Shown piece by piece: positions 2,032 through 64,000 of a DNA stretch of 64,000 nucleotides. Below the pieces are notes generated by a model, which saw only the letters and a list, made by a program, of their open reading frames with translations, was not told where the DNA came from and did no database searches. This stretch comes from Cupriavidus sp. 2SB. Lineage in GTDB: Bacteria > Pseudomonadota > Gammaproteobacteria > Burkholderiales > Burkholderiaceae. Where the stretch lies: positions 1 through 64,000 of the forward strand of contig NZ_SCMX01000012.1 of the NCBI RefSeq assembly GCF_005503625.1, read 5' to 3'. The stretch's first letter is position 1; each line of letters opens with the position of its first letter. A program made the position numbers and the translations under genes.

Positions 2032-2598
2032 AGTAGGCGGATTCAGCGGCTTCTTCCTGTCTTCCTTGTTCAGTCAGACGACGAGAAAAGTGATGGGGTA
2101 AAATCTGATAAGAATTATCTACTTACGTAGACTTTGTCGCTGCATTCAACACATATTTTCGTCTTTTTTGGGGATGAAATATTCTATCGGTTCTACGCCG
2201 AAGATGTAATTGTGTGTCTTTTTCGGGAGCGACCGCAGCCGTTGTCATGCTGCCTATGTCTCCGCTGGCGTGTGAGCGCCGCCTACCCGCCCCTACCTCC
2301 CTTGAGCTTGCAGGCAAACGGCGAAAGCCTTGGTTCTGCGCTCTTGTCTCAGAGCTCCTAGTAATCGCCTGCAGTTCATGGAGTTCATTCCGCTCCACTC
2401 CACACATTGTCCCCGCAACCGAAAGTATTTTTTTGGGGAAAGTCCTTGGGTTTAAATGCGAATTTTGCGATTTTCTGATAATAAAAAATATTAAAATTAT
2501 GCGCACTATGCAACCAGTTTCATAGGGTTACTGATACCGTTATCTACTCACAAAATTTTCTACCATATATTCTCCAAGACTCGCCGTTGTGACTCATC
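2032..2598. other. AT-rich leader region of the Tn7-like module, possible transposon end
   Basis: There is no convincing gene in these 570 bases. Base composition becomes markedly AT-rich from about 2095. A degenerate motif recurs: GTCTTTTTTGGGG (from 2161), TGTCTTTTTCGGGAG (2215) and AGTATTTTTTTGGGG (2424), with an inverted look-alike CCCCAAAAAATGATCG at about 2690 inside tnsA. In Tn7-like elements the end next to tnsA carries several TnsB binding sites and starts with TGT; TGTCGCTGC near 2125 could be such a terminus. The repeats are seen; calling them TnsB sites is inference. Confidence 0.35.
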
Positions 2599-3213
2599 AT
2601 GTATCACGCCGCAGACCAGCACAGATTGAGCCCGGCTGAATTTGTTAGAAATCCAAATCGCGGCCACGCGTCGGTCTATTTTTTTGATTCCCCAAAAAAT
2701 GATCGTCGCTTTGGCATTTTCGGCGTGGTTGCATTTTCGCATTTATTGCTAGCCGAAGGAAATCCTGAAATACTGTCGTATCTTCCATCCAGGCCACCAA
2801 AAGAAAAATCTGAAAAAAAATACAAACAAACAGTTGATGTTTTATATCAGTCTGGCAAGACGGAGTGTTGGCACTTCAATCACTCTAGGAACGGGGAACC
2901 CACGCGACACAAGAATAGGATAACCAAGACCGAAGGCGAAATCCGAATGGCGCAATGGCTGCCCCATAATTGGATGTTGCTATGTTCCTATCGAACACGC
3001 GTTAGAGGAGCTATAGACCCGAATCCCAGGGCCCTCCCAGGATTAATTAGCGCCAGAAGTAGCTTCACGCTCCAGGAGGTTCTCGCACTAGAAGATTGTG
3101 ATCCCGCACACTTACTTGCTAGTGTGGCGCGCTACTTGGCAAACGGGAAACTTAAAACCGAACTTCGTACTAGCGCATTTCACCGACGTTCCCTTCTAGA
3201 ACGGGTTGAATAA
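2599..3213 (+). CDS. tnsA: TnsA-like transposase endonuclease subunit, atypical active site
   Basis: A 204-residue protein placed first in a tnsA-B-C-tniQ array. In Tn7 the TnsA nuclease cuts the 5' ends of the element while TnsB cuts the 3' ends. The middle part (about residues 60-95) resembles the TnsA core, with VDVLYQSGKTECWHF where the family usually has a D followed by (E/Q)-x-K. The catalytic lysine is not visible here. The C-terminal third (residues 150-204, SFTLQEVLALEDCDPAHLLA) fits the helical TnsA C-terminal domain. The stop overlaps the tnsB start (TAATG at 3211-3215). An in-frame TGA at 2590 limits the start to 2593 or later. The position is the strongest evidence; the sequence match is weak. 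Confidence 0.65.
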   Translation: MYHAADQHRLSPAEFVRNPNRGHASVYFFDSPKNDRRFGIFGVVAFSHLLLAEGNPEILSYLPSRPPKEKSEKKYKQTVDVLYQSGKTECWHFNHSRNGEPTRHKNRITKTEGEIRMAQWLPHNWMLLCSYRTRVRGAIDPNPRALPGLISARSSFTLQEVLALEDCDPAHLLASVARYLANGKLKTELRTSAFHRRSLLERVE

Positions 3214-5258
3214 TGGGCGGGGGCGCGCGGAGATCGTTGATTCAACAATATCACGGTGAGCTTGTCGACTGGCCCCATCCCGATATCACCGTTCTTGACG
3301 ATGCGACTCGTCGAACGTTTCTGAATCGAAAGCTTGCCGTTGAGTTATATGCTGCCGATATTCCCTACGGTGAGATTCAAGAACAGACAAAATTCTCGCC
3401 AAACGAAGTGAGGCGCTTGCTCCGACGATGCGTGGCATCAGCAGGGGAGGGGTGTATTGTAGGATTTTATGCGTTGCTTCCGAGTTTTCGCATTAAGCCT
3501 TACTTCAGAACGAAACCCATTATTGCGAAGCATCCATTGGCCGATCAACGCTCTAGTGGTTACGCTGGCGCGCTGGCGCAGTTATTCGAAAAGTTTCCTG
3601 ATGTCAAGAAAGATTTAATACAAAAATTCTTTCTGCAGCCGGATAAACAAAAGAAGTCAAAAAATAGCCGTTCGCCGCAGTTAGGGCCGCAGCCTTATAT
3701 TGAAATACATGGCGAGTTTCTTTCTGAATTACGGACAAAAGGGGTTGGAGAGAATGAATGGCCCTTCCTGACGGAAGACAAGGGTAGACGATCCCTTTTG
3801 CGCTTCCTTCATTCTTTGAAGAATGAAAGATCAGAGCGTGCGGTAAAAGCCAGAATGGGTGCTGAGGCGACTAACAATCTAGGACATGGTATGGGTCCTA
3901 ATGCTCTCATATCGCCACTTCTCCCGTTTGCAGTCGTAGAGCTTGATTACACAGTTATTGATATTCCCACTCATGTTAGGGTGATTGATCCCAACGGTAC
4001 AGGGCATTTGATACCTATATCTCGTTGGTATCTAGGGTTGCTGGTCGAGGTAAAAACAAGCGCAATTTTGGGCGCACATATCTCTCTGGAAGTTAACCCG
4101 AGCGCCGATTGTGCGTTGCAGACGATGTTGAGCAGTGTGCCTGTCGTGTTAGACGCACGGAATTCTGGTGACGTTCGCATTGAGGTACGTAGCACCAATA
4201 TGGATTTTGTTGCACGCGGCCCCACCTTGATATGCTCGTTGATACCGCAGTTGGCAGGGCAAGCATTCAGTTTGCTTAGGGTGGATAACGGTTGGTGCAA
4301 TATTGCAAATGATTTTGTAAATAACGTTATTGATGTATTTGGTTGTGCCATTGAGTTCGGCCCCCCACGTGCCTGGTGGGGAAGGTCGTTAGTCGAAAGG
4401 ATCATTGGGGTTTCAAAAGAACGCGGAGAGCATCGCCTGAAGGCCACATACGCGTCGGGCCCCGACGATGTTCGCCGGCCCCCCGATGTCGAACAGCTCG
4501 GTTTAAATGACGGAATCGACCTTGATTTTGTGGTCGATATGTTGAATGCCGTTGTCCGTGAACATAATACTATCTCAACCGGTGATCGACTTAATGGTGC
4601 AACTGTAATTAATGTTCTGCAAAGATTCGTAGATAAGCATGAGCTTCTATGGGTTCCACAGCCTCTACCAAGATCTATCAATTCAAATGATCGACTCCTT
4701 ATGCACCGACGAAAGGTGGAGGTTAGGGGAGAATGGGGCGTCCATACGCGTAGGCCGTACATTAATACGGCATACTGCCGATATACAAATCCTCGTATCG
4801 CTTCTGATTTTTCTATGATAGGAAGAAAAGTGTTTGTCTACATCAATCGTCTCGATGCGAGAGAGGCATGGGCAAGTGACGCGGAAACTGGCGAGAATTT
4901 GGGCAAGCTATACGGTGAGGAAAAATGGGAAAACTGGCGATGTGCATTGCGGGTCAGAGAACTGGTAGGCGCAAAAGCAAAGGGACGGCCCCGAGGCCGG
5001 AGCCCCGATATTTATGCTAGATCCGGAAAAGTAGATTATGAGTTTGTAACGAGCGAAAATAGCGGCGAAAATATCGGAAAAAAAACTGCGCTTGCGATAG
5101 CGAAAGTAGCTCGGGATAGCTTTACTGGTTCGAAATCAGCATCCCTAAAGCCGGCCGAAGAAGATAACCACAATAATAATGTTGGGAGTGATAACGATCT
5201 GCTTCCAAATATAAATCCGCGCGGAATATTCAAGCTGGATTCGGGGAATAAGAAATGA
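3213..5258 (+). CDS. tnsB: TnsB-like DDE transposase of Tn7-like element
   Basis: A 681-residue Mu/TnsB-type transposase. N-terminal DNA-binding helices (residues about 40-75, IPYGEIQEQTKFSPNEVRRL) are followed by an RNase H-like integrase core. Probable catalytic residues are the D in VVELDYTVID (about residue 247), the D in RVDNGWCNIANDF (about 363) and the E in GRSLVERIIG (about 393). A beta-barrel region and a basic tail follow (AKGRPRGRSPDIY), then an acidic, asparagine-rich C-terminus that would be the TnsC-contact tail. It carries out strand cleavage and joining at the 3' ends. It is translationally coupled to tnsA and followed immediately by tnsC. All three acidic residues are present, so the enzyme may be active. 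Confidence 0.88.
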   Translation: MGGGARRSLIQQYHGELVDWPHPDITVLDDATRRTFLNRKLAVELYAADIPYGEIQEQTKFSPNEVRRLLRRCVASAGEGCIVGFYALLPSFRIKPYFRTKPIIAKHPLADQRSSGYAGALAQLFEKFPDVKKDLIQKFFLQPDKQKKSKNSRSPQLGPQPYIEIHGEFLSELRTKGVGENEWPFLTEDKGRRSLLRFLHSLKNERSERAVKARMGAEATNNLGHGMGPNALISPLLPFAVVELDYTVIDIPTHVRVIDPNGTGHLIPISRWYLGLLVEVKTSAILGAHISLEVNPSADCALQTMLSSVPVVLDARNSGDVRIEVRSTNMDFVARGPTLICSLIPQLAGQAFSLLRVDNGWCNIANDFVNNVIDVFGCAIEFGPPRAWWGRSLVERIIGVSKERGEHRLKATYASGPDDVRRPPDVEQLGLNDGIDLDFVVDMLNAVVREHNTISTGDRLNGATVINVLQRFVDKHELLWVPQPLPRSINSNDRLLMHRRKVEVRGEWGVHTRRPYINTAYCRYTNPRIASDFSMIGRKVFVYINRLDAREAWASDAETGENLGKLYGEEKWENWRCALRVRELVGAKAKGRPRGRSPDIYARSGKVDYEFVTSENSGENIGKKTALAIAKVARDSFTGSKSASLKPAEEDNHNNNVGSDNDLLPNINPRGIFKLDSGNKK

Positions 5259-5282
5259 TTGCGTGCGATCGTGGAGAAAGAA

Positions 5283-6290
5283 ATGGATGAGGGTCATCTT
5301 CGAGCATTAATGCTGCAGCACCCGATTATATCCAAGAAGAGCAGAGCGGAATCACCATTATGGACACTCCCGATATCGAATTTTTATGACAACGCCAGAA
5401 CTTTATTGTTTCTCAGGCAAAGTTTTTTCATAGAAGAGATCGCTGGCGAGGGAAAAACCATCATGATGAATGTCCTTCGTGAGCGGTTACCAAGAGATCT
5501 CAGCGAAATTCACGTACTCTCTTATAGAGGCTTAAATAGGGAAATATTTTCTCATGGTGGATTTGTGAGGGATTTGCTTTATACGGTTAATCATGCTGCT
5601 CTTGATGGAAATTCATACGAATTAAGTCGGAGATTGATTAATGACATTGTGGCTTCTGCACTGGAGACTAATTGGAAGCTAATTGTGATGCTGGTTGACG
5701 AAGCGCAGGCCCTTCGTCCTATAGATTTCGGTTTTATCAAAGATCTGCATAATGAATTAGAAGAGGTGAGGATTGATTTCGTCGTGATTTGTTGTGGCGA
5801 GTCTCCAAAAATTCGTGAATTATTCAGAACCTTATCCAGTGAGCAGCAAATAGGCTGCCTGGATCGGTATTTTAGGCATCGGCTGAGACTCAGCGGATAT
5901 GGATTGGAAGAGCTGCAAGATCTGCTTGAGGTGATCGACGTGAAAAGATGGCCGACGGATTTTGGACCAACATGGACAGAATTTTGTTTTCCACTCGGAT
6001 ATGCCTCTGGCTTTCGCCTAGCTAATCAAGCCAGTTTATTTTGGCAGGCAATGAAGGAGGTACATCTTATAAGAGACGATAAAATATCAGAACCAAGTCA
6101 AAATGGAAAATTGCTTTCGAGGCGTATTTTCGATGCTCTTGGGTTTTTAGCGTTTAAGGGTATGGATAAAGATTGCCCAAACTTCGAGTTTCCAAAGGAA
6201 GATTGGCAGAGTGCCGCTAAGTTTGCAGCTAAATCGGCCTGGGATGAAAAACCGGATGCCACGGATAGACCAGACTGCTCTCAAGCTTAG
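5283..6290 (+). CDS. tnsC: TnsC/TniB-type AAA+ transposition regulator
   Basis: An ATPase of about 335 residues. The Walker A is IAGEGKTIMMNVL at about residues 56-68 and the Walker B is LIVMLVDEAQAL at about 138-149, with a sensor-type arginine helix in FRHRLRLSGYGLEELQ. This is the AAA+ adaptor that passes target information from TniQ/TnsD to the transposase. The frame is open back to a TTG at 5259 next to the tnsB stop, but ATG 5283 has GGAG about 10 bases upstream and is preferred. Lies between tnsB and tniQ. Confidence 0.85.
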   Translation: MDEGHLRALMLQHPIISKKSRAESPLWTLPISNFYDNARTLLFLRQSFFIEEIAGEGKTIMMNVLRERLPRDLSEIHVLSYRGLNREIFSHGGFVRDLLYTVNHAALDGNSYELSRRLINDIVASALETNWKLIVMLVDEAQALRPIDFGFIKDLHNELEEVRIDFVVICCGESPKIRELFRTLSSEQQIGCLDRYFRHRLRLSGYGLEELQDLLEVIDVKRWPTDFGPTWTEFCFPLGYASGFRLANQASLFWQAMKEVHLIRDDKISEPSQNGKLLSRRIFDALGFLAFKGMDKDCPNFEFPKEDWQSAAKFAAKSAWDEKPDATDRPDCSQA

Positions 6291-6292
6291 GC

Positions 6293-7621
6293 ATGAAAGA
6301 CGCTCACTGGTGCGGTGGTGGATTAGATTCGATACCAAATGAGTCTTCATTCGGGTATTTTCATCGGTTGTGTTGGCTGAATGCAGTTGGCATGCAAGCC
6401 GCAATGAGGTTACTCGATGCTCCGAATTTTCCCACGCGCACGCAGACTTTTTTCGGCAAGCTGAAACGAATCCGCCATGTCATAGAGCGAGTTAACTTCA
6501 ATAGTACTAGGTTTCCAGAGGAGCGTTCGCTGGTGGCTGGGGAGGTTTCAAATTTGTTGGGCGCCATTTTTACTAGTCGCCTTAGATTTTGTCCCGTTTG
6601 TTTGGAGTCCGGATATCACTCGATCTGGTTTCAGTGTAGCAAGTTAGCGCGATGCCCGATTCACAATGTTGATATACATGATCGTTGCATGAAGTGTAGT
6701 AGCCTTCTCTCCGATATAGGTATTTTGGAAAACTTCAGAGAGGCGCTTCATTGTCCGGTATGTCACTGTGCATTATCGGGGGCGCCCCTTAGTCCAGGAG
6801 TTTTTGTCGAAAGCTACCTCCACGAACATCGAACCCACGTAAAAATATATCGACAAGCATTCTCTACGTTGAATGAGTGGGTAGAGGATGTCTCCGCTCG
6901 CGGTGACAGTTGGATCGCCTACTCCAACGTCGAAATATGGGCCGCGGATGCGGAATGTGCCTTTGCGATTGCATGTGCGCTGGCAAAGCCTCCGGAGATA
7001 TTGGAACGGCCATCATGCAACGGCGTAGCCCTGTTCTGGCAACGACATTTGGCGGGAAATATGTCATTCGTGCCTTTGTTTACTATTAGACGGCGCGAAG
7101 ACGAGCTTATACGCGTTGTCTATTGCTGCACTTTGCGGCTTCTGCGTTCTTATGCTGCGGGTATTGCGAGCTCCGGGAGGGTTCCGCTGAAGCAATTTGT
7201 CGTCTTCAGGAAGGGCGACGGAATACAAGTCAGCACAGGGGATGCACGAGTACAGGCCTACCTGCTGCTACGCTATTTTGTGGAACAACCTGCCAATAGT
7301 GTTATCGCGCTTGATTCAGCAGTAGAACAGGTGTCGCCAAGTAGAGATTTGGGATGGTTTCTCTCCAGGGACGAGAACTCGAGAGCATCGACCCGAGCAG
7401 GAATTCTATTGGCGTATGCGACAATGCATCGTGCGATTCGAGAAGCAGCGACCTCCGGATTTGTGAAATGGGATCGTCTGATCGAACTGGTACAAGGTGT
7501 CGTCATGGCCCATCAATACTCGGAGACTGTCGAGCGGGGAGTCGTAGTATTCCGGATGCCCGTGGGAATGCCTTTGGCTCCGTTTCGGCCTTTGCCGAAT
7601 CTTCCCCGCATTTCTGCGTAA
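6293..7621 (+). CDS. tniQ: TniQ/TnsD-family target-selection protein
   Basis: A 442-residue TniQ-family protein. An N-terminal TniQ domain starts near residue 8 (IPNESSFGYFHRLCWLNAVG). A zinc-finger cluster at about residues 99-160 has RFCPVCLESGYHSIWFQC, then ARCPIHNVDIHDRCMKC and LHCPVCHCAL: repeated CxxC pairs with a CPIH-type finger. TniQ proteins choose the target site, directly or through a partner. The long unassigned C-terminal part may recognise DNA, as in TnsD. It starts two bases after the tnsC stop. No cas genes or CRISPR array accompany it, so an RNA-guided role is not suggested. Confidence 0.85.
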   Translation: MKDAHWCGGGLDSIPNESSFGYFHRLCWLNAVGMQAAMRLLDAPNFPTRTQTFFGKLKRIRHVIERVNFNSTRFPEERSLVAGEVSNLLGAIFTSRLRFCPVCLESGYHSIWFQCSKLARCPIHNVDIHDRCMKCSSLLSDIGILENFREALHCPVCHCALSGAPLSPGVFVESYLHEHRTHVKIYRQAFSTLNEWVEDVSARGDSWIAYSNVEIWAADAECAFAIACALAKPPEILERPSCNGVALFWQRHLAGNMSFVPLFTIRRREDELIRVVYCCTLRLLRSYAAGIASSGRVPLKQFVVFRKGDGIQVSTGDARVQAYLLLRYFVEQPANSVIALDSAVEQVSPSRDLGWFLSRDENSRASTRAGILLAYATMHRAIREAATSGFVKWDRLIELVQGVVMAHQYSETVERGVVVFRMPVGMPLAPFRPLPNLPRISA

Positions 7622-8528: not shown

Positions 8529-10076
8529 CTAGGTCGGGAGCGTCAGGGAGGCTTGATAGCCGCCGCCAAACGCGCCCTCGAAGTCATACTCATACAAGGT
8601 TGTTCGTCCCATACCCGGCTGACGCTGGCCCAGGAAGAACGTAAAGGCGTTGGGCGCCGCAATAAAAATATGCATTGGAGGTTTCACGTCCTTCCGCTCC
8701 ATATTGATGCGCTGAACCAAGGCTTCGGCGAGTTCGAAAGCGTGCCTGCCGCTTGCGACCGACTGCGCTCCCGATCCGCACGACGGTTTCGCGACTAATA
8801 GCTTGCTGACGCCAGGCAAGGCGGTGGCAATATAGCCGCGCACCGCGTCGGGAATATCGTGGGTGAGCGCAACAGCCACGGCCATCTCTCCTGACTCTGA
8901 CGTCAAGTCTTCCACTTCAAAGTTCCACGTCGGCCAGTCTGGATTGGTGAAAGTGTCCGTCGCGCTCCAGCTTTGCCGGTCGATCGTACGCTGCTCGATT
9001 TCCACGTGCCGTCCAGACTTGATGTTGACGACGGACCCAGCGGCAAACGCCAGCGTCAAGTGGGCGTCTAGCGCCAGGAGTAACGGTTGCGGTTCGCGCG
9101 CCGCGTCAATGAGAAAGCGCTTGAGCGCGGGGTACAGGTTGCCGGTCCAATCTTGCTGGTCGCGAATGGCCCGATCGTTGAAATACGGTATCAAGTCCAG
9201 GACGGTGCTGCATCGTTCCTCTAGTCGGTCGAACGCGTGCTCGAACGACTTGACACCCACTAGTGTCCTTGGAGAGTTCCTTTTCGCAAACAGATTCTCG
9301 CGCTGGCAGGCGTCCCGAAAGGTGTCCCGCGTGAACTCGAGGCGACCCTGGGCGAGCCATTGGAAGACGATGTCGTCATACCGGAAGCTACTCTCGTTCA
9401 GCGGTATGCGAAGCAGTCCCCGGTTCTCGAAGTGCATGTCCAACAGTTCGCGGAGGTCATCCAGCGATGTGGAGTCGGTGTCGAGCGAAAGCGTGCGGGC
9501 CAGTAGACGCAATTCGGCATCGTCGATGCCCAGATGTTCCCGCCACAGTTTCCGGATCCGGCCTGTCGCCGACGCATCGGTCTTCGTGCCAAACAACTGC
9601 TCCAGGCGAATGGCTTTGTGACGCTGATGGATAAGGGGTCGGAGCGGGTCGGTCTGCGCGATCCGCCAGTTGGTTAGCAATTTGAATCGGACCCCGATCC
9701 CGTCTTTCGCGTGGGCGTGCTGAGCATTTCGGGCCCGCTGAAGAAAGGAAAAACGATTGGCGTTGATCCACTCGGGATCTATGAGGTCGCTATGTCCGAA
9801 GTCGCTTACCGAAACGTGCCACTTGCATTGCGTGTACTCCCGCAGGATTGGTTTTCCTTCTGGGTCATTTGGTGCACGGCTGGGGTCATATTCCACCCAT
9901 ACGTCGTCGAAGCCTTTGGGACCGGATTCGAAACCCACGCGAATGACGGGGCTGTTAGGGTCAAGCAGGCAAACGGCCTTGCGCCAGAAAATCCGGGCCT
10001 GGAAGTTGTCGCCGTCCCGACGCACAGGCGCTTTAGTTATCGGCAGTCGATAGCTGACGCGCGGCGGGACATGCAT
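8529..10076 (-). CDS. SAVED-domain protein with N-terminal nuclease-like domain (Cap4-like)
   Basis: About 515 residues from ATG 10076. The N-terminal part has DGDNFQARIFWRKAVCLL, then KGFDDVWVEYDP and REYTQCKWHV. The spaced D and Q-x-K suit a PD-(D/E)xK nuclease of the DUF4297/Cap4 kind. The C-terminal 150 residues (WNFEVEDLTSESGEMAVAVA through MHIFIAAPNAFTFFLGQ to YEYDFEGAFGGGYQASL) match a SAVED domain, which binds cyclic oligonucleotides in CBASS anti-phage systems. The predicted role is a DNA-degrading effector switched on by a nucleotide second messenger. No CD-NTase gene is present nearby: upstream sequence is cut by an IS66 remnant, so the effector looks orphaned. The frame is open to 10262, but the first 60 codons overlap IS66 antisense sequence, so ATG 10076 or 10082 is preferred. 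Confidence 0.78.
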   Translation of the reverse strand: MHVPPRVSYRLPITKAPVRRDGDNFQARIFWRKAVCLLDPNSPVIRVGFESGPKGFDDVWVEYDPSRAPNDPEGKPILREYTQCKWHVSVSDFGHSDLIDPEWINANRFSFLQRARNAQHAHAKDGIGVRFKLLTNWRIAQTDPLRPLIHQRHKAIRLEQLFGTKTDASATGRIRKLWREHLGIDDAELRLLARTLSLDTDSTSLDDLRELLDMHFENRGLLRIPLNESSFRYDDIVFQWLAQGRLEFTRDTFRDACQRENLFAKRNSPRTLVGVKSFEHAFDRLEERCSTVLDLIPYFNDRAIRDQQDWTGNLYPALKRFLIDAAREPQPLLLALDAHLTLAFAAGSVVNIKSGRHVEIEQRTIDRQSWSATDTFTNPDWPTWNFEVEDLTSESGEMAVAVALTHDIPDAVRGYIATALPGVSKLLVAKPSCGSGAQSVASGRHAFELAEALVQRINMERKDVKPPMHIFIAAPNAFTFFLGQRQPGMGRTTLYEYDFEGAFGGGYQASLTLPT

Positions 10077-10173
10077 CCGCATCGATGCCGTAGCCCAGCA
10101 AATGCAGGGCCGCGGCATGGATCGACGCGTGTTCGTTCGATATAGCTCCCGCGAAGCTTCCATAATTGCGAAC
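10033..10173 (-). pseudogene. Possible 3' fragment of the gene upstream of the SAVED effector
   Basis: A second minus-strand frame reads SNEHASIHAAALHLLGYGID, then DADACPAARQ, and stops at 10035-10033. It overlaps the start of the SAVED gene by about 40 bases. Its composition is protein-like and the overlap resembles translational coupling of neighbouring operon genes. There is no start codon, and a stop at 10176-10174 closes the frame on the IS66 side. It may be the tail of the missing partner gene, conceivably the nucleotidyltransferase, but no family was recognised. It could also be chance. Confidence 0.3.
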
Positions 10174-10182
10174 TTACGATAA

Positions 10183-10214
10183 TTTCGATTATGGAAGGGC
10201 TTCCATAATCGAAA
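10183..10214. repeat. Perfect 15-bp inverted repeat
   Basis: TTTCGATTATGGAAG, a GG spacer, then CTTCCATAATCGAAA: a perfect 15-base inverted repeat at 10183-10197 and 10200-10214. A third copy of the half-site CTTCCATAAT lies at 10159-10168. It sits exactly at the junction between the defence-like genes and the IS66 remnant. It could be an operator array of the former upstream gene or a rearrangement product. No T-tract follows, so it is not a normal terminator. Confidence 0.6.
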
Positions 10215-10470
10215 GGCATGGCTCTTCGCAGACACCGTGGCCGGCGCCAAGGCAAGCGCCATGATCTATAGCCTGATGCTGACGTGCCGGGCCTGTGACG
10301 TCGAGCCATATGCCTATCTGCTCCACGTGCTCACAGAGTTGCCACAGCGAACGCCAGACGCCGACATCAGCGACCTGTTGCCGTTCAGCTTCGCCCCGCC
10401 GAAAGCCGCCCCGCCGCATCCTGCCTGAATACGCTCGTCGCACTCAAGGTGTGCCGAAACTGGCGCTTAC
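10209..10470 (+). mobile_element. IS66-family element, 3' remnant (TnpC C-terminus and right end)
   Basis: The plus-strand frame from about 10209 reads KAWLFADTVAGAKASAMIYS, then ACDVEPYAYL and LTELPQR, ending at 10428. This is the C-terminus of IS66 TnpC transposase. The element end appears to be at 10470, where the sequence finishes GCGCTTAC (reverse complement GTAAGCGC, the typical IS66 terminus). The rest of the element is gone. Immediately beyond 10470 the ISKra4 transposase reading resumes, so the IS66 inserted into that gene; GATGGGCA at 10471-10478 is the candidate 8-bp target duplication. Confidence 0.75.
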
Positions 10471-59579: not shown

Positions 59580-60806
59580 TTATGCTTTCCTGATCCATCC
59601 GATGCGGTGCCGCTCCTGCGTGGCCTCGTGCCGCGCATCCTCTTCGCTGTGCAGATAGCCGCTCGTCGTCGACAGCGAGCTGTGCCCAAAGTTGTCGCGC
59701 ACATAACGCAGGTCGACCTGCTGGTCGGTCATATGCGAGCCGGCGGTGTGGCGCAGCCAGTGGGCCGAGGCGCTGGCCAGCACCGCGGCCTGCGCCCCCC
59801 ACTCGGGCCCGCGCGCCCGCAGGCGCTCCGCGGCCATGCCAAACACCTCTTTCAGGATCAGGTGCAGCGCGCCGCGTGACAGGGGTTTCTCGCCACCCTC
59901 TCTGCCAATCACCGGCAGCACCAGTGGCCGCGTCTCCCCGAACTGCGGGGTAGGCGGCAGGTCGTGGGCGCGACGGTAGCGCGCGAGTTCGGCAATCAGT
60001 TCGTCGGTCGCCGGCACCAGCCGGGTCTTGTTGCCTTTGCCGGTCACCTCGAGCCACCAGCGCTCGATGCCCTGGCCATCGCGCCGGCAGAAGAACGCGC
60101 CCATGGGGGTCGCCGTCAGCTCGGAGGCGCGCAGGCCGCCCAGATAGAGCACGGTCAGCACCCACCGGCAGCGCGCGGCGTGCCGGCGTTCCCGCGCGGT
60201 CTCGGTCGGCATGGCCGCGACGGTGTCTTTGACCGTTTCCCACAGGTCGTGGCTCAGATAGCGGGTGATGCGCGCTCGGGTGGGGGCGCGCCGGCGGCGG
60301 GCGAGGGCAAGCGGGTTGCCGGCCAGGTAGCCCGCCTCGGTCAGCCAGGCGAACAGCGCGTTCAGGATCACCATCGCGTGGCGCACGCTGGACGGCGACA
60401 GCGGCCCGGCAAACGGGCGCCAGTCGGGGTGGCCGCGTGCAAGCTTCTTGCTGCCGGCCAGCACCCAGCGCGCGGCGGGTTGCGGATCGGCGAGGAAGCG
60501 CTCGTAGGCGAGCAGGTCTTCGTGCGTCAGCGAGGACAAGGGCTTGCCCACCTGGAGCACGGTCCACAGGATCAGCCGCTCCACCTCGCGGCGATAAGTG
60601 GTGAGCGTCGCGGTGCTGTCGGCATAGCGCGCGAGCCAGGCGGTGACGGCGGCCAGGTCGTCGGCCGCGGCGATCCGCGTGGCGCTGGCGGGCGCGCGGT
60701 TGCTGCCGGCCGCGCCGGACAGCGCCGGGGTCAGGCGCAGGCGCTCCAGCGGGGTGGGAAGCGGGGCGGCCAGGCCATCCAAAGGTTTAATCGGGAGCAG
60801 TTCCAT
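59580..60806 (-). CDS. Plasmid-type tyrosine recombinase/integrase
   Basis: A 408-residue tyrosine recombinase. The N-terminal SAM-like domain is at about residues 45-165 (TATLTTYRREVERLILWTVL). The catalytic domain has R in LYLGGLRASELTATP, then K in VTGKGNKTRLVPAT, HWLRHTAGSH and the nucleophile region FGHSSLSTTSGYLHSEEDAR. It is divergent from kfrA, a pairing seen on large Burkholderiales replicons, where it may resolve multimers. ATG 60806 chosen from the domain start; the frame is open to 60914. Confidence 0.9.
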   Translation of the reverse strand: MELLPIKPLDGLAAPLPTPLERLRLTPALSGAAGSNRAPASATRIAAADDLAAVTAWLARYADSTATLTTYRREVERLILWTVLQVGKPLSSLTHEDLLAYERFLADPQPAARWVLAGSKKLARGHPDWRPFAGPLSPSSVRHAMVILNALFAWLTEAGYLAGNPLALARRRRAPTRARITRYLSHDLWETVKDTVAAMPTETARERRHAARCRWVLTVLYLGGLRASELTATPMGAFFCRRDGQGIERWWLEVTGKGNKTRLVPATDELIAELARYRRAHDLPPTPQFGETRPLVLPVIGREGGEKPLSRGALHLILKEVFGMAAERLRARGPEWGAQAAVLASASAHWLRHTAGSHMTDQQVDLRYVRDNFGHSSLSTTSGYLHSEEDARHEATQERHRIGWIRKA

Positions 60807-61229
60807 GGTGTATCGGCCTAAGCGTCGGTTTGCACAAATTTGTTCCCGCTGGTCGCACGCCAGCAAGCCGATTGCAGGGCGATGGTAACAATATTGCGTC
60901 GAGAAACGCTGCAAGAAATTGTTCCCCCAGCCGACACTTGAAGCAATTTTGTACCTTCCCCCAACGCATCGGTCCGTCGTCAGCCTTCACCCCGCCGACG
61001 GCGCGGGGCGATCCGATGGACGGGATTCAGCTGCGCAAAGCGATGACGTTCGCCGTCAGGCGTGCCACGCAAGCTAGCCGAGTCACGCCGCGCCTGCCGC
61101 CGGTGCGTGCGCTCCAGCGCGCCAGCCAGGCGTGCCCATGGGGGTCGGGAACAAAATTCTGCAAAAAGAGGGCACAAATTTATGCATACCGACAGGGGCA
61201 GCGTGGGGAGGCGATTCGAGCCAATATTA
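60807..61229. other. Intergenic region between recombinase and KfrA operators
   Basis: No gene recognised. Several repeated-looking segments containing ACAAATTT or ACAAAATT (60835, 61150, 61173) lie here; they might be binding sites of the recombinase or of a replication protein. Confidence 0.35.
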
Positions 61230-61295
61230 TAGACATAAGCGTACTTATGTCTAAACTTTTACACGAATCTTGTTATCCACTACGTATTACGTAGT
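61230..61295. promoter_or_regulatory. Two palindromes upstream of kfrA
   Basis: TAGACATAAG-CGTA-CTTATGTCTA at 61230-61253 and ACTACGTA-T-TACGTAGT at 61279-61295, both perfect in their arms. KfrA proteins are known to bind palindromes at their own promoter; these two are the obvious candidates. The first may alternatively be a recombinase or partition site. Confidence 0.6.
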
Positions 61296-61332: not shown

Positions 61333-62364
61333 ATGACGCCAGACGCTGTAGATCCCCTTCGCCTCGAAGCCGAGGTCGAGCAGTTGCGGCACCTTCACGC
61401 CGACACGCGCACGCTCTACCGCGAGGTGTGCGGGCTGCTGTTCTTTCGCTACGGCATCACGCCCACCACCAACAAGCTCTATCAACTGGTGCGCAAGGGC
61501 AGCATGGGCACGCCGGCCCAGGCGCTGCAGCAGTTCTGGCAAGACCTGCGCGCCCGTTCGCGGGTCACGATTGACCATCCCGATCTCCCCGACAGCCTGA
61601 AGCAGGTGGCTGCCGACGCCGTCCAGACCATCTGGCGCGCCGCCGGCGAAGCCGTCTTGGCCGAACTCGCCGCGACGCGCCAAGACATAGAGGCGCAGGA
61701 GCAAGTCGTCGCGGCCGAGCGGGATGCCGCGCAGATGGCTTTCGCCGACGCTCAAGCCGCGCTCACCGCGCTCGAGCGCGAGCGCGAGGCGTTGCGGGCT
61801 GAATGCCGCCAGTTGCAGGAGCAGGTGGCGCAGGCGCGCGGCGCCGAAGCAGCCGCATCGACGCACCGGGAGGCCTTGCAGAGCGAACTGCTGGCGGCGC
61901 GCGAGCAGGCGGGCGCCGCGCGCAGTGATTTCCTGGCGGAGCTGGAGCGCATGCGCGAGCAACTCGAAGCGATGGAGGCGCGCGGGGACGCTGCCGTGCG
62001 GCGTGCCCAACTGGAATTGGACCAGGAACGCACGGCGCGGCGCCAGAGTGACCGGGGACTCGATGCGGCGCGGGTGGAGGTGGATCGCTTGCGCGACATG
62101 CAGCGGCAGGAAGCGGTGGCCGCGGCCGAAGCGCTGGGTAGTTGGCAAGCCCAGGCGCAGGCGGCGCAGGTACGTTGCGCGGCGCTGCAGGACGCGCAGG
62201 AGAGCGGACAGCAACAACTGGGTGCCGCCCAGGAGGCCTTGGCAGAAATGACCCGGCGGGCCGAGCGTGCCGAGACTGAACGGGACCTGTCGCGCGAGTT
62301 GCTGGGCAATTGGCGCGACGGCGCCAAGGTGCGATCCGGGGCACGGCGCAAGGCCGCCGCCTAA
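61333..62364 (+). CDS. kfrA: KfrA-like plasmid DNA-binding coiled-coil protein
   Basis: A 343-residue protein. The N-terminal DNA-binding region (residues 20-70, REVCGLLFFRYGITPTTNKL and YQLVRKGSMGTPAQAL) matches the KfrA_N domain. From about residue 110 to 330 it is an unbroken alanine-, glutamate- and arginine-rich coiled coil. KfrA proteins autoregulate and contribute to stable plasmid maintenance. Strong sign that the DNA is a plasmid or chromid. Start ATG 61333, with AAGGTG upstream. Confidence 0.88.
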   Translation: MTPDAVDPLRLEAEVEQLRHLHADTRTLYREVCGLLFFRYGITPTTNKLYQLVRKGSMGTPAQALQQFWQDLRARSRVTIDHPDLPDSLKQVAADAVQTIWRAAGEAVLAELAATRQDIEAQEQVVAAERDAAQMAFADAQAALTALEREREALRAECRQLQEQVAQARGAEAAASTHREALQSELLAAREQAGAARSDFLAELERMREQLEAMEARGDAAVRRAQLELDQERTARRQSDRGLDAARVEVDRLRDMQRQEAVAAAEALGSWQAQAQAAQVRCAALQDAQESGQQQLGAAQEALAEMTRRAERAETERDLSRELLGNWRDGAKVRSGARRKAAA

Positions 62365-62383: not shown

Positions 62384-62625
62384 ATGCACGCGCCCCATGA
62401 GATTGCCCGCGCCGACGCCATTCGCTGGGTGCGTATCAAGATGGCGCAATCGGGCCTGACACTGGCCGATTTATTGGCGGCCGGCTGTTTCGCGCCCACA
62501 GCGGCACGGCCACGCTACCGCAAAATGCCGAGGGGCAAACCTGGGATGGGCGAGGGGAGCGTCCCGACTGGTTTCAGCGGGCCATCAACGCCGGACAGCA
62601 GCCGGAATTCTTTCAGATCGACTGA
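62384..62625 (+). pseudogene. H-NS-family fragment with a one-base frameshift
   Basis: From ATG 62384 the frame reads IRWVRIKMAQSGLTLADLLA and reaches RPRYRK. The H-NS DNA-binding motif then continues in another frame: NAEGQTWDGRGERPDWFQRA, ending FFQID and TGA at 62623-62625. Adding one A to the AAAA run at 62521 would fuse the two. The coiled-coil oligomerisation region of H-NS is largely missing. Either a short H-NS-like antagonist with a homopolymer error or a decayed gene. Confidence 0.7.
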
Positions 62626-63780: not shown

Positions 63781-64000
63781 ATGCTACGCGTGACCGTGGA
63801 ACTCATTCCAGACGGACAGGAAGACTGCCGCCGAACACTTGGGCAGCTTGAGATCGAGAACATCGCGGGCGATTCGCTGGTGACCGGTGCCTACCGAATC
63901 GTCATGGACGAGTTCGATGCGCGGGGCCCGGGGCCGCGCACAACGTTCCGGACCATCGCATCGCTAGACAATGTGGAACGGGACCTCGTTCGCCCAATGC
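63781..64000 (+). CDS. Hypothetical protein, 5' part
   Basis: Open from ATG 63781 to the window edge: MLRVTVELIPDGQEDCRRTL, GQLEIENIAGDSLVTGAYRI and on. The beta-rich amphipathic pattern is typical of small plasmid-encoded hypothetical proteins. No domain recognised. It probably forms an operon with the HAD gene. Confidence 0.65.
   Translation, partial: MLRVTVELIPDGQEDCRRTLGQLEIENIAGDSLVTGAYRIVMDEFDARGPGPRTTFRTIASLDNVERDLVRPM

Follow-up and report, generated by a model that had tools for sequence, protein, structure and literature searches.

A Tn7-like transposon of Cupriavidus found beside dif-like sites and carrying a TnsA homologue without its nuclease site

Tn7 and the Tn7-like elements that encode both TnsA and TnsB share the gene order tnsA-tnsB-tnsC-tniQ, a DDE transposase in TnsB, 5-bp target duplications and insertion in one orientation at a chromosomal site, and their ends are given as TGT..ACA in the passages of PMC10132070 that describe them. 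A single engineered change in the active site of TnsA (D90A), made in the Tn7-like CRISPR transposon VchCAST, is reported to give over 95% cointegrate reads (PMC8188705), and the type V-K CAST likewise combines an active TnsB with the lack of 5' cleavage and the formation of cointegrates; in these CRISPR-guided systems TnsA is absent or was inactivated in the laboratory. Even with its TnsA, Tn6022 produced 39% cointegrates in an assay (PMC10293859, in whose text the words dif and XerC are absent). Tn7-like branches that lack TnsA and have tyrosine resolvases are predicted to transpose replicatively (Benler et al. 2021, PMC8649781). Transposition of Tn5053/Tn402, with their resolvase module, is probably replicative too, and Tn5053, as a res hunter, targets a site-specific recombination site (PMC11406308). 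The dif hunters of the IS1202 family, such as ISAjo2, are described as 1.5-kb insertion sequences without TnsA, TnsC or TniQ, with a TnsB-like transposase, a 5-bp duplication, ends TGT..ACA and a fixed orientation by dif or pdif, 5 bp from the XerC site (PMC10132070).

Here we describe a Tn7-like transposon of about 75 kb (~75.2 kb) from Cupriavidus, the left part of which lies in the window, i.e. the whole stretch of 64,000 nucleotides that was analysed. It has the tnsB-tnsC-tniQ operon, the DDE TnsB and the 5-bp duplications of a Tn7-like element, yet its TnsA lacks the nuclease site, its ends read AGTC..GACT rather than 5'-TGT..ACA-3', and its target is the dif region. Like Tn5053 it appears to have no functional TnsA and is probably replicative, and an intact recombinase/KfrA pair with a putative core site inside the element may be a resolution module of its own; unlike Tn5053/Tn402 and the TnsA-less branches it has kept a TnsA homologue, and its target is dif-like, not a res site of the Tn1721 type. 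It differs from the IS1202 family in being 75 kb long, in lying 34–49 bp away from the site and in turning its right end toward the TTAACATAA arm, and from the CAST systems in that its TnsA is retained and seems to be naturally inactive. Tn7-like transposons themselves are known; what we judge to be new is a dif-homing member of this group with a retained TnsA pseudo-nuclease, and in the open-licence PMC literature we found no account of either feature among the matches listed. The TnsA-dead Tn7-like transposons found in print are laboratory mutants, for which the clade of this element provides a natural case. In addition, the element adds a large, multi-protein member to the dif-hunting insertion sequences and presents a TniQ system that targets a landmark both short and widespread among bacteria.

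The transposon and its copies

The left-end operon consists of four genes on the forward strand in almost gapless succession: tnsA (2599..3213; starting with ATG, 204 aa), with tnsB (3213..5258; DDE transposase) immediately behind it, then tnsC (5259..6290; AAA ATPase, TTG start, PF13401 AAA_22 6.7e-7) and tniQ (6293..7621). The last is the likely target selector by its colinear operon position, though its match to PF06527 TniQ (E 2.2e-4, 22.3 bits) stays under the curated cut-off of 27. The GC3 of the four genes is 0.41–0.50, as against mostly 0.57–0.77 in the other ORFs listed. TnsB has lost none of its three acidic residues, as the earlier note had read from the sequence, and the D-D-E triad is intact in every one of the 37 rows of the TnsB alignment. 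Neither Pfam nor NCBIfam gave a match for the first two proteins, so that ordinary annotation may miss both TnsA and TnsB; for TnsA the searches covered Pfam (E up to 10), NCBIfam (E up to 1) and PHROGs (E up to 0.1).

Copies of the element that are 99.8–100% identical to the window wherever the two align are present in five genomes (G001; G002, C. respiraculi LMG 21510; G014; G035, Cupriavidus sp. D384; G053) and on NZ_CP043441.1, a replicon of C. campinensis MJ1. These Cupriavidus hosts are soil bacteria. The left end was placed at 2072..2098 (5'-AGTCAGACGACGAGAAAAG...), where the window and the six other copies turn identical and all flanks differ; the window itself represents a seventh distinct left flank and its own right end lies beyond base 64,000. 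Following the MJ1 copy rightwards gave an element of 75,231 bp, whose ends, AGTC...GACT, are fixed by the six target duplications. Near these ends a search for repeated TnsB-binding sites yielded weak short repeats only. Perfect 5-bp duplications of host sequence flank all six complete copies (AGTGT in G001, GCATC in G002, AGCAG in G014, GGCAT in G035, CAGAG in G053 and GTTGA in MJ1), the left and right ends of the G035 copy being on separate contigs. Some copies contain extra DNA, and that in G001 spans 114.6 kb; a right end initially placed at the point where G001 and G014 diverge was rejected, since the G001 copy holds extra DNA and its right end lies elsewhere.

All six complete copies are simple insertions. 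The earlier note, which could not see the true extent of the element or its dif target, had proposed a search for cointegrate-type structures or other full copies in related genomes. Full copies were indeed found there, and no second full copy, tandem copy or cointegrate was detected in the five genomes and the one MJ1 replicon. Searches with TnsA returned one match of ~100% each in G001, G002, G014 and G035 (the second match in G014 is a 46% relative), G053 contains a single frameshifted tnsA that appears as two overlapping matches, and the MJ1 replicon has a single locus. In G053 both tnsA and tnsB contain several small frameshifts (L032–L035); these are perhaps sequencing errors, which is a guess. 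Separately, on a whole 6.3-kb contig from another family of the same order (L130, G333:C7), tniQ, tnsC and a 3' portion of tnsB are 99.6–100% identical at the protein level, which would reflect either recent wide transfer or contamination.

TnsA without its nuclease site

Seven Cupriavidus homologues of 31–46% identity align with the window TnsA along its whole length. When a profile of eight degenerate core sequences was compared by hhalign with 28 intact TnsA rows, a separate set taken from Burkholderiales genomes by means of PF08722 (30 were extracted and two dropped by a length filter), the match reached 96.3% (E 1.9e-9) over 193 columns and both domains, against 0–0.4% for the controls (tyrosine recombinases, TnsB and five column-shuffled profiles). 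A narrow profile of four Cupriavidus sequences gave just 57% over 87 columns and the second degenerate group 13% against the intact TnsA; the core group is linked to the intermediates at 96–99% and to the second degenerate group at 98%. No TnsA was found in PDB sequence searches and no TnsA relative in the viral contigs searched. Judged by these comparisons, the ORF at 2599–3213 encodes a TnsA homologue that has kept homology over both domains and lost the nuclease site. The alternative that the protein is an unrelated accessory subunit encoded ahead of tnsB draws on the silence of Pfam, NCBIfam and PHROGs and on the 57% of the narrow profile; we consider it very unlikely, given that the wider family profile spans both TnsA domains while its controls stay near zero, and that intermediates such as L083 and L086 bridge the degenerate and the intact TnsA.

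The alignment was anchored on L086, an intact homologue from Klebsiella (PF08722 E 4.3e-12). Relative to it the window protein has A at the position of the catalytic Glu and H-x-N at the E-x-K positions; the automatic alignment puts the Asp of its VDV two columns away from the catalytic Asp, and this residue counts as conserved only with a gap moved. The set of an active TnsA nuclease, E, D and E/Q-x-K, is not present. The earlier note had pointed to the stretch VDVLYQSGKTECWHF of this ORF and to the lack of a lysine after its glutamate; both observations hold, and the deficit is larger than it supposed because the catalytic Glu is gone as well. Among the 28 control rows E is found in 27, D in 28, E/Q in 25 and K in 28, with all four residues in 24. 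The corresponding counts for the 19 family rows are 1, 11 (in automatic columns; more with gaps moved), 2 and 5 (one of them, L077, scored as a K row via a poorly aligned stretch only), and L086 is the one row with all four. Separate reading by eye of L082 and L094 showed that E-x-K is absent there too, and the intermediate L083 has D and E-V-K and is missing the Glu. Three of the loci (L079, L080 and L082) encode TnsA-TnsB fusions, the TnsA part of which is likewise without an active site.

The loss is not a sequencing slip, as tnsA is identical at 614–615 of 615 bases in five of the six other copies, the sixth (G053) being shifted by small indels. A single-sequence AlphaFold model of the protein was uninformative (pLDDT 34.5), and the missing site was consequently judged from the alignment; of the two checks that the earlier note had suggested for this protein, alignment to TnsA gave the homology and the missing site, and structure prediction allowed neither an intact nor a shifted site to be read.

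A TnsB tree of 37 rows, from which two fragmentary loci (L087 and L128) were left out, places the window within a clade of 12, all with a disarmed TnsA, at a support of 100/100. Across the tree as labelled the disarmed state needs six changes, with L094 labelled as TnsA-less despite its disarmed remnant and with four long terminal branches of unsure placement; TnsA-less elements fall mostly in one neighbouring group. The dN/dS of tnsA among the six closest relatives is 0.11–0.24 (15 pairs), which indicates that selection maintains the disarmed protein; the former nuclease half and the C-terminal half alike show a dN well below dS. Together, the clade-wide loss of the site and the purifying selection suggest that the protein is kept for something besides this cut. 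Such a natural clade makes the non-cutting roles of TnsA testable, i.e. activating TnsB and bridging to TnsC, and surveys that recognise TnsA through Pfam models could count the branch as TnsA-less.

The dif-like target and the recombinase module

In all six complete copies the right end lies, in one orientation, 34–49 bp from a 28-bp dif-like (Xer) sequence, ATTTAACATAA-6-TTATGCG and variants thereof, of which the TTAACATAA arm always faces the element. This fixed orientation and spacing is that of a dif hunter, at a site that is dif-like by sequence and that we so name on a presumed correspondence to E. coli dif. Derived from four of the copies, the pattern pointed in the other two, G001 and G035, to right ends that proved to be there. 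Its 19-bp core, allowing at most one mismatch, has a single occurrence in each of the five genomes and in the MJ1 replicon, with no occurrence of the reversed pattern; a looser motif is present in 38 of 59 genomes of the genus, compared with 0 of 59 for the reversed control. In the three replicons sampled, mean GC skew falls across the element, from +0.027 to −0.010 in G014, from +0.014 to −0.023 in G053 and from +0.022 to −0.004 in G002; single 20-kb values are noisy, and two of the seven on the right side of G014 and one of the four at high coordinates of G053 are of the wrong sign. Such a drop is expected near a replication terminus, and the dif-like site looks like the terminus site of the chromosome.

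An unoccupied orthologue of the dif region of G014 was found in two genomes (L239 and L240). A candidate empty site for MJ1 in G036 (L241) was rejected, as ~3.5 kb of other sequence separates the flank from dif, and the left flank of the window has no match among the dif-region loci tested. In the G006 relative the operon lies 13–18 kb from a dif-like site; a relaxed scan of 38 locus entries (1.1 Mb counting both strands) gave, besides this relative, only two hits with two mismatches, a weak negative for the relatives because most of the stretches probably stop short of the right end. The right flanks of G014 and MJ1, as well as L239, show an IS-like terminal sequence (TGTAGCGGC...) just past the far side of the dif-like site, and in G014 and MJ1 AATGTCC repeats follow it. 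Other elements may be crowding dif too.

Toward its right side the window encodes an intact TnpS-like tyrosine recombinase of 408 aa (59580..60806, minus strand; PF00589 2.3e-13) and, divergent from it, a TnpT-like KfrA_N coiled-coil DNA-binding protein (61333..62364, plus strand; PF11740 5.1e-15). Between the two genes is an inverted-repeat core (61223..61260) with 17-nt arms, 82% complementary, and a 4-nt spacer, ATTATAGACATAAG-CGTA-CTTATGTCTAA, which is a candidate recombination site. An H-NS-like gene follows (62408..62616, plus strand; 57–66% identity by tblastn) and is present in other modules too. The recombinase is 86–89% identical to one in a Tn3-family transposon and to those that flank the tnsBC-tniQ operons of pHG1 and pRK1-1, neither of which has an annotated tnsA at that place; the KfrA_N protein shares 69–72% identity in its N-terminal part with the same gene in three modules. 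The recombinase/KfrA/H-NS module of the Tn3-family transposon (L251:5220-11915) has VapBC alongside, and a nearly identical core occupies the same place in it. One resolution cassette would thus seem to be common to unrelated classes of transposon.

TnpS/TnpT of Tn4651 are the model for such a recombinase/KfrA-type pair. Two papers among the matches listed contain these names along with 'cointegrate resolution'. The resemblance to known cointegrate-resolution modules makes a role in resolution plausible, and the module, internal and ~16 kb from the right end, could also be cargo. A second recombinase, which tblastn recognised and Pfam did not, begins at a distance of 50 bp from the right end and breaks off after HxxR. 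Of 32 loci that lack an intact TnsA, 10 have a tyrosine recombinase nearby, as against none of 21 control loci (Fisher p 0.004; the weak hit L117, E 5e-4, is left out of the count). With TnsA-less and unclassified loci excluded, the count is six of 23 loci with degenerate or partial TnsA (p 0.02), a minority. The controls are 20 PF08722 loci and L086, with a TnsB match in 13 of the 20 and 14 of all 21; against these 14 the values become p 0.02 (10/32) and p 0.06, not significant (6/23). The association lends weak support, because the flanks are unequal (3.5–10 kb), several loci of Cupriavidus are close to being copies of one another, some recombinases (L094) adjoin Tn3-family genes and the controls come from a distant TnsB clade.

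Possible mode of transposition and cargo

The earlier note had proposed that with an inactive TnsA the element would move by replicative cointegrate formation rather than cut-and-paste. The nuclease site is indeed lost, throughout the clade, the D90A precedent stands and a plausible resolution module is at hand; what did not turn up in the five genomes and the MJ1 replicon is a cointegrate or second full copy. Replicative transposition followed by resolution, with TniQ/TnsC targeting to the dif region, is what we regard as most likely, with reasonable though by no means full confidence, on account of the D90A result, the TnsA-less branches and the cointegrates of Tn6022. Within the TnsABC complex, TnsA would then have a structural or regulatory role without cutting, and TnsB would make 3'-strand joins only, from which replication would yield a cointegrate. 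The element's own recombinase module, or RecA acting on the 75-kb repeats, would resolve this to the simple insertions observed, and TniQ-TnsC would bring the complex to dif, perhaps via XerC/XerD bound there. More tentatively, and with rather less than an even chance of holding in all its parts, we suggest a long-lived Tn7-like branch in which TnsA is now a conserved non-cutting subunit, copy-in is combined with the element's own or host-driven resolution, and TniQ/TnsC homes to the dif region, on chromosomes and chromids alike; large cointegrates would then arise at the very place where host Xer/FtsK resolves dimers.

Cut-and-paste and resolved cointegrates account equally well for simple insertions flanked by 5-bp duplications. 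Cut-and-paste could persist through a rearranged TnsA active site or through another nuclease, of the element or the host, that cuts the 5' strands, and the six simple insertions, the single full copy in each of the five genomes and the purifying selection on tnsA would suit it. We nevertheless think it unlikely, as no conserved replacement set of acids and lysine was seen (the single Glu row and the five K rows of the 19 all fall outside the window's clade of 12) and no substitute nuclease was recognised among the genes examined. That the element is dying, with tnsA a decaying pseudogene and the identical copies passive leftovers, is an explanation to which the truncated recombinase at the right end and the frameshifts of G053 would lend themselves; it is the least probable of those considered, for six almost identical copies, each at a dif-like site of its own and with a perfect duplication, show recent mobility, and dN/dS in the relatives is well below 1.

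A SAVED-domain protein (8529-10262, minus strand; PF18145 1.7e-32), a defence sensor of the CBASS type, is encoded a short way past the tns operon. From ~12.1 to 60 kb of the window much of the cargo is 98–99.5% identical to stretches of the plasmid pRK1-1 and of plasmids of Cupriavidus sp. P-10, which indicates that the same catabolic block travels on plasmids too. Past the window and near the right end, the MJ1 copy encodes a protein of 1356 aa (L073:24385-28455) with PIN-TPR-GreABC and weak Mrr-like matches.
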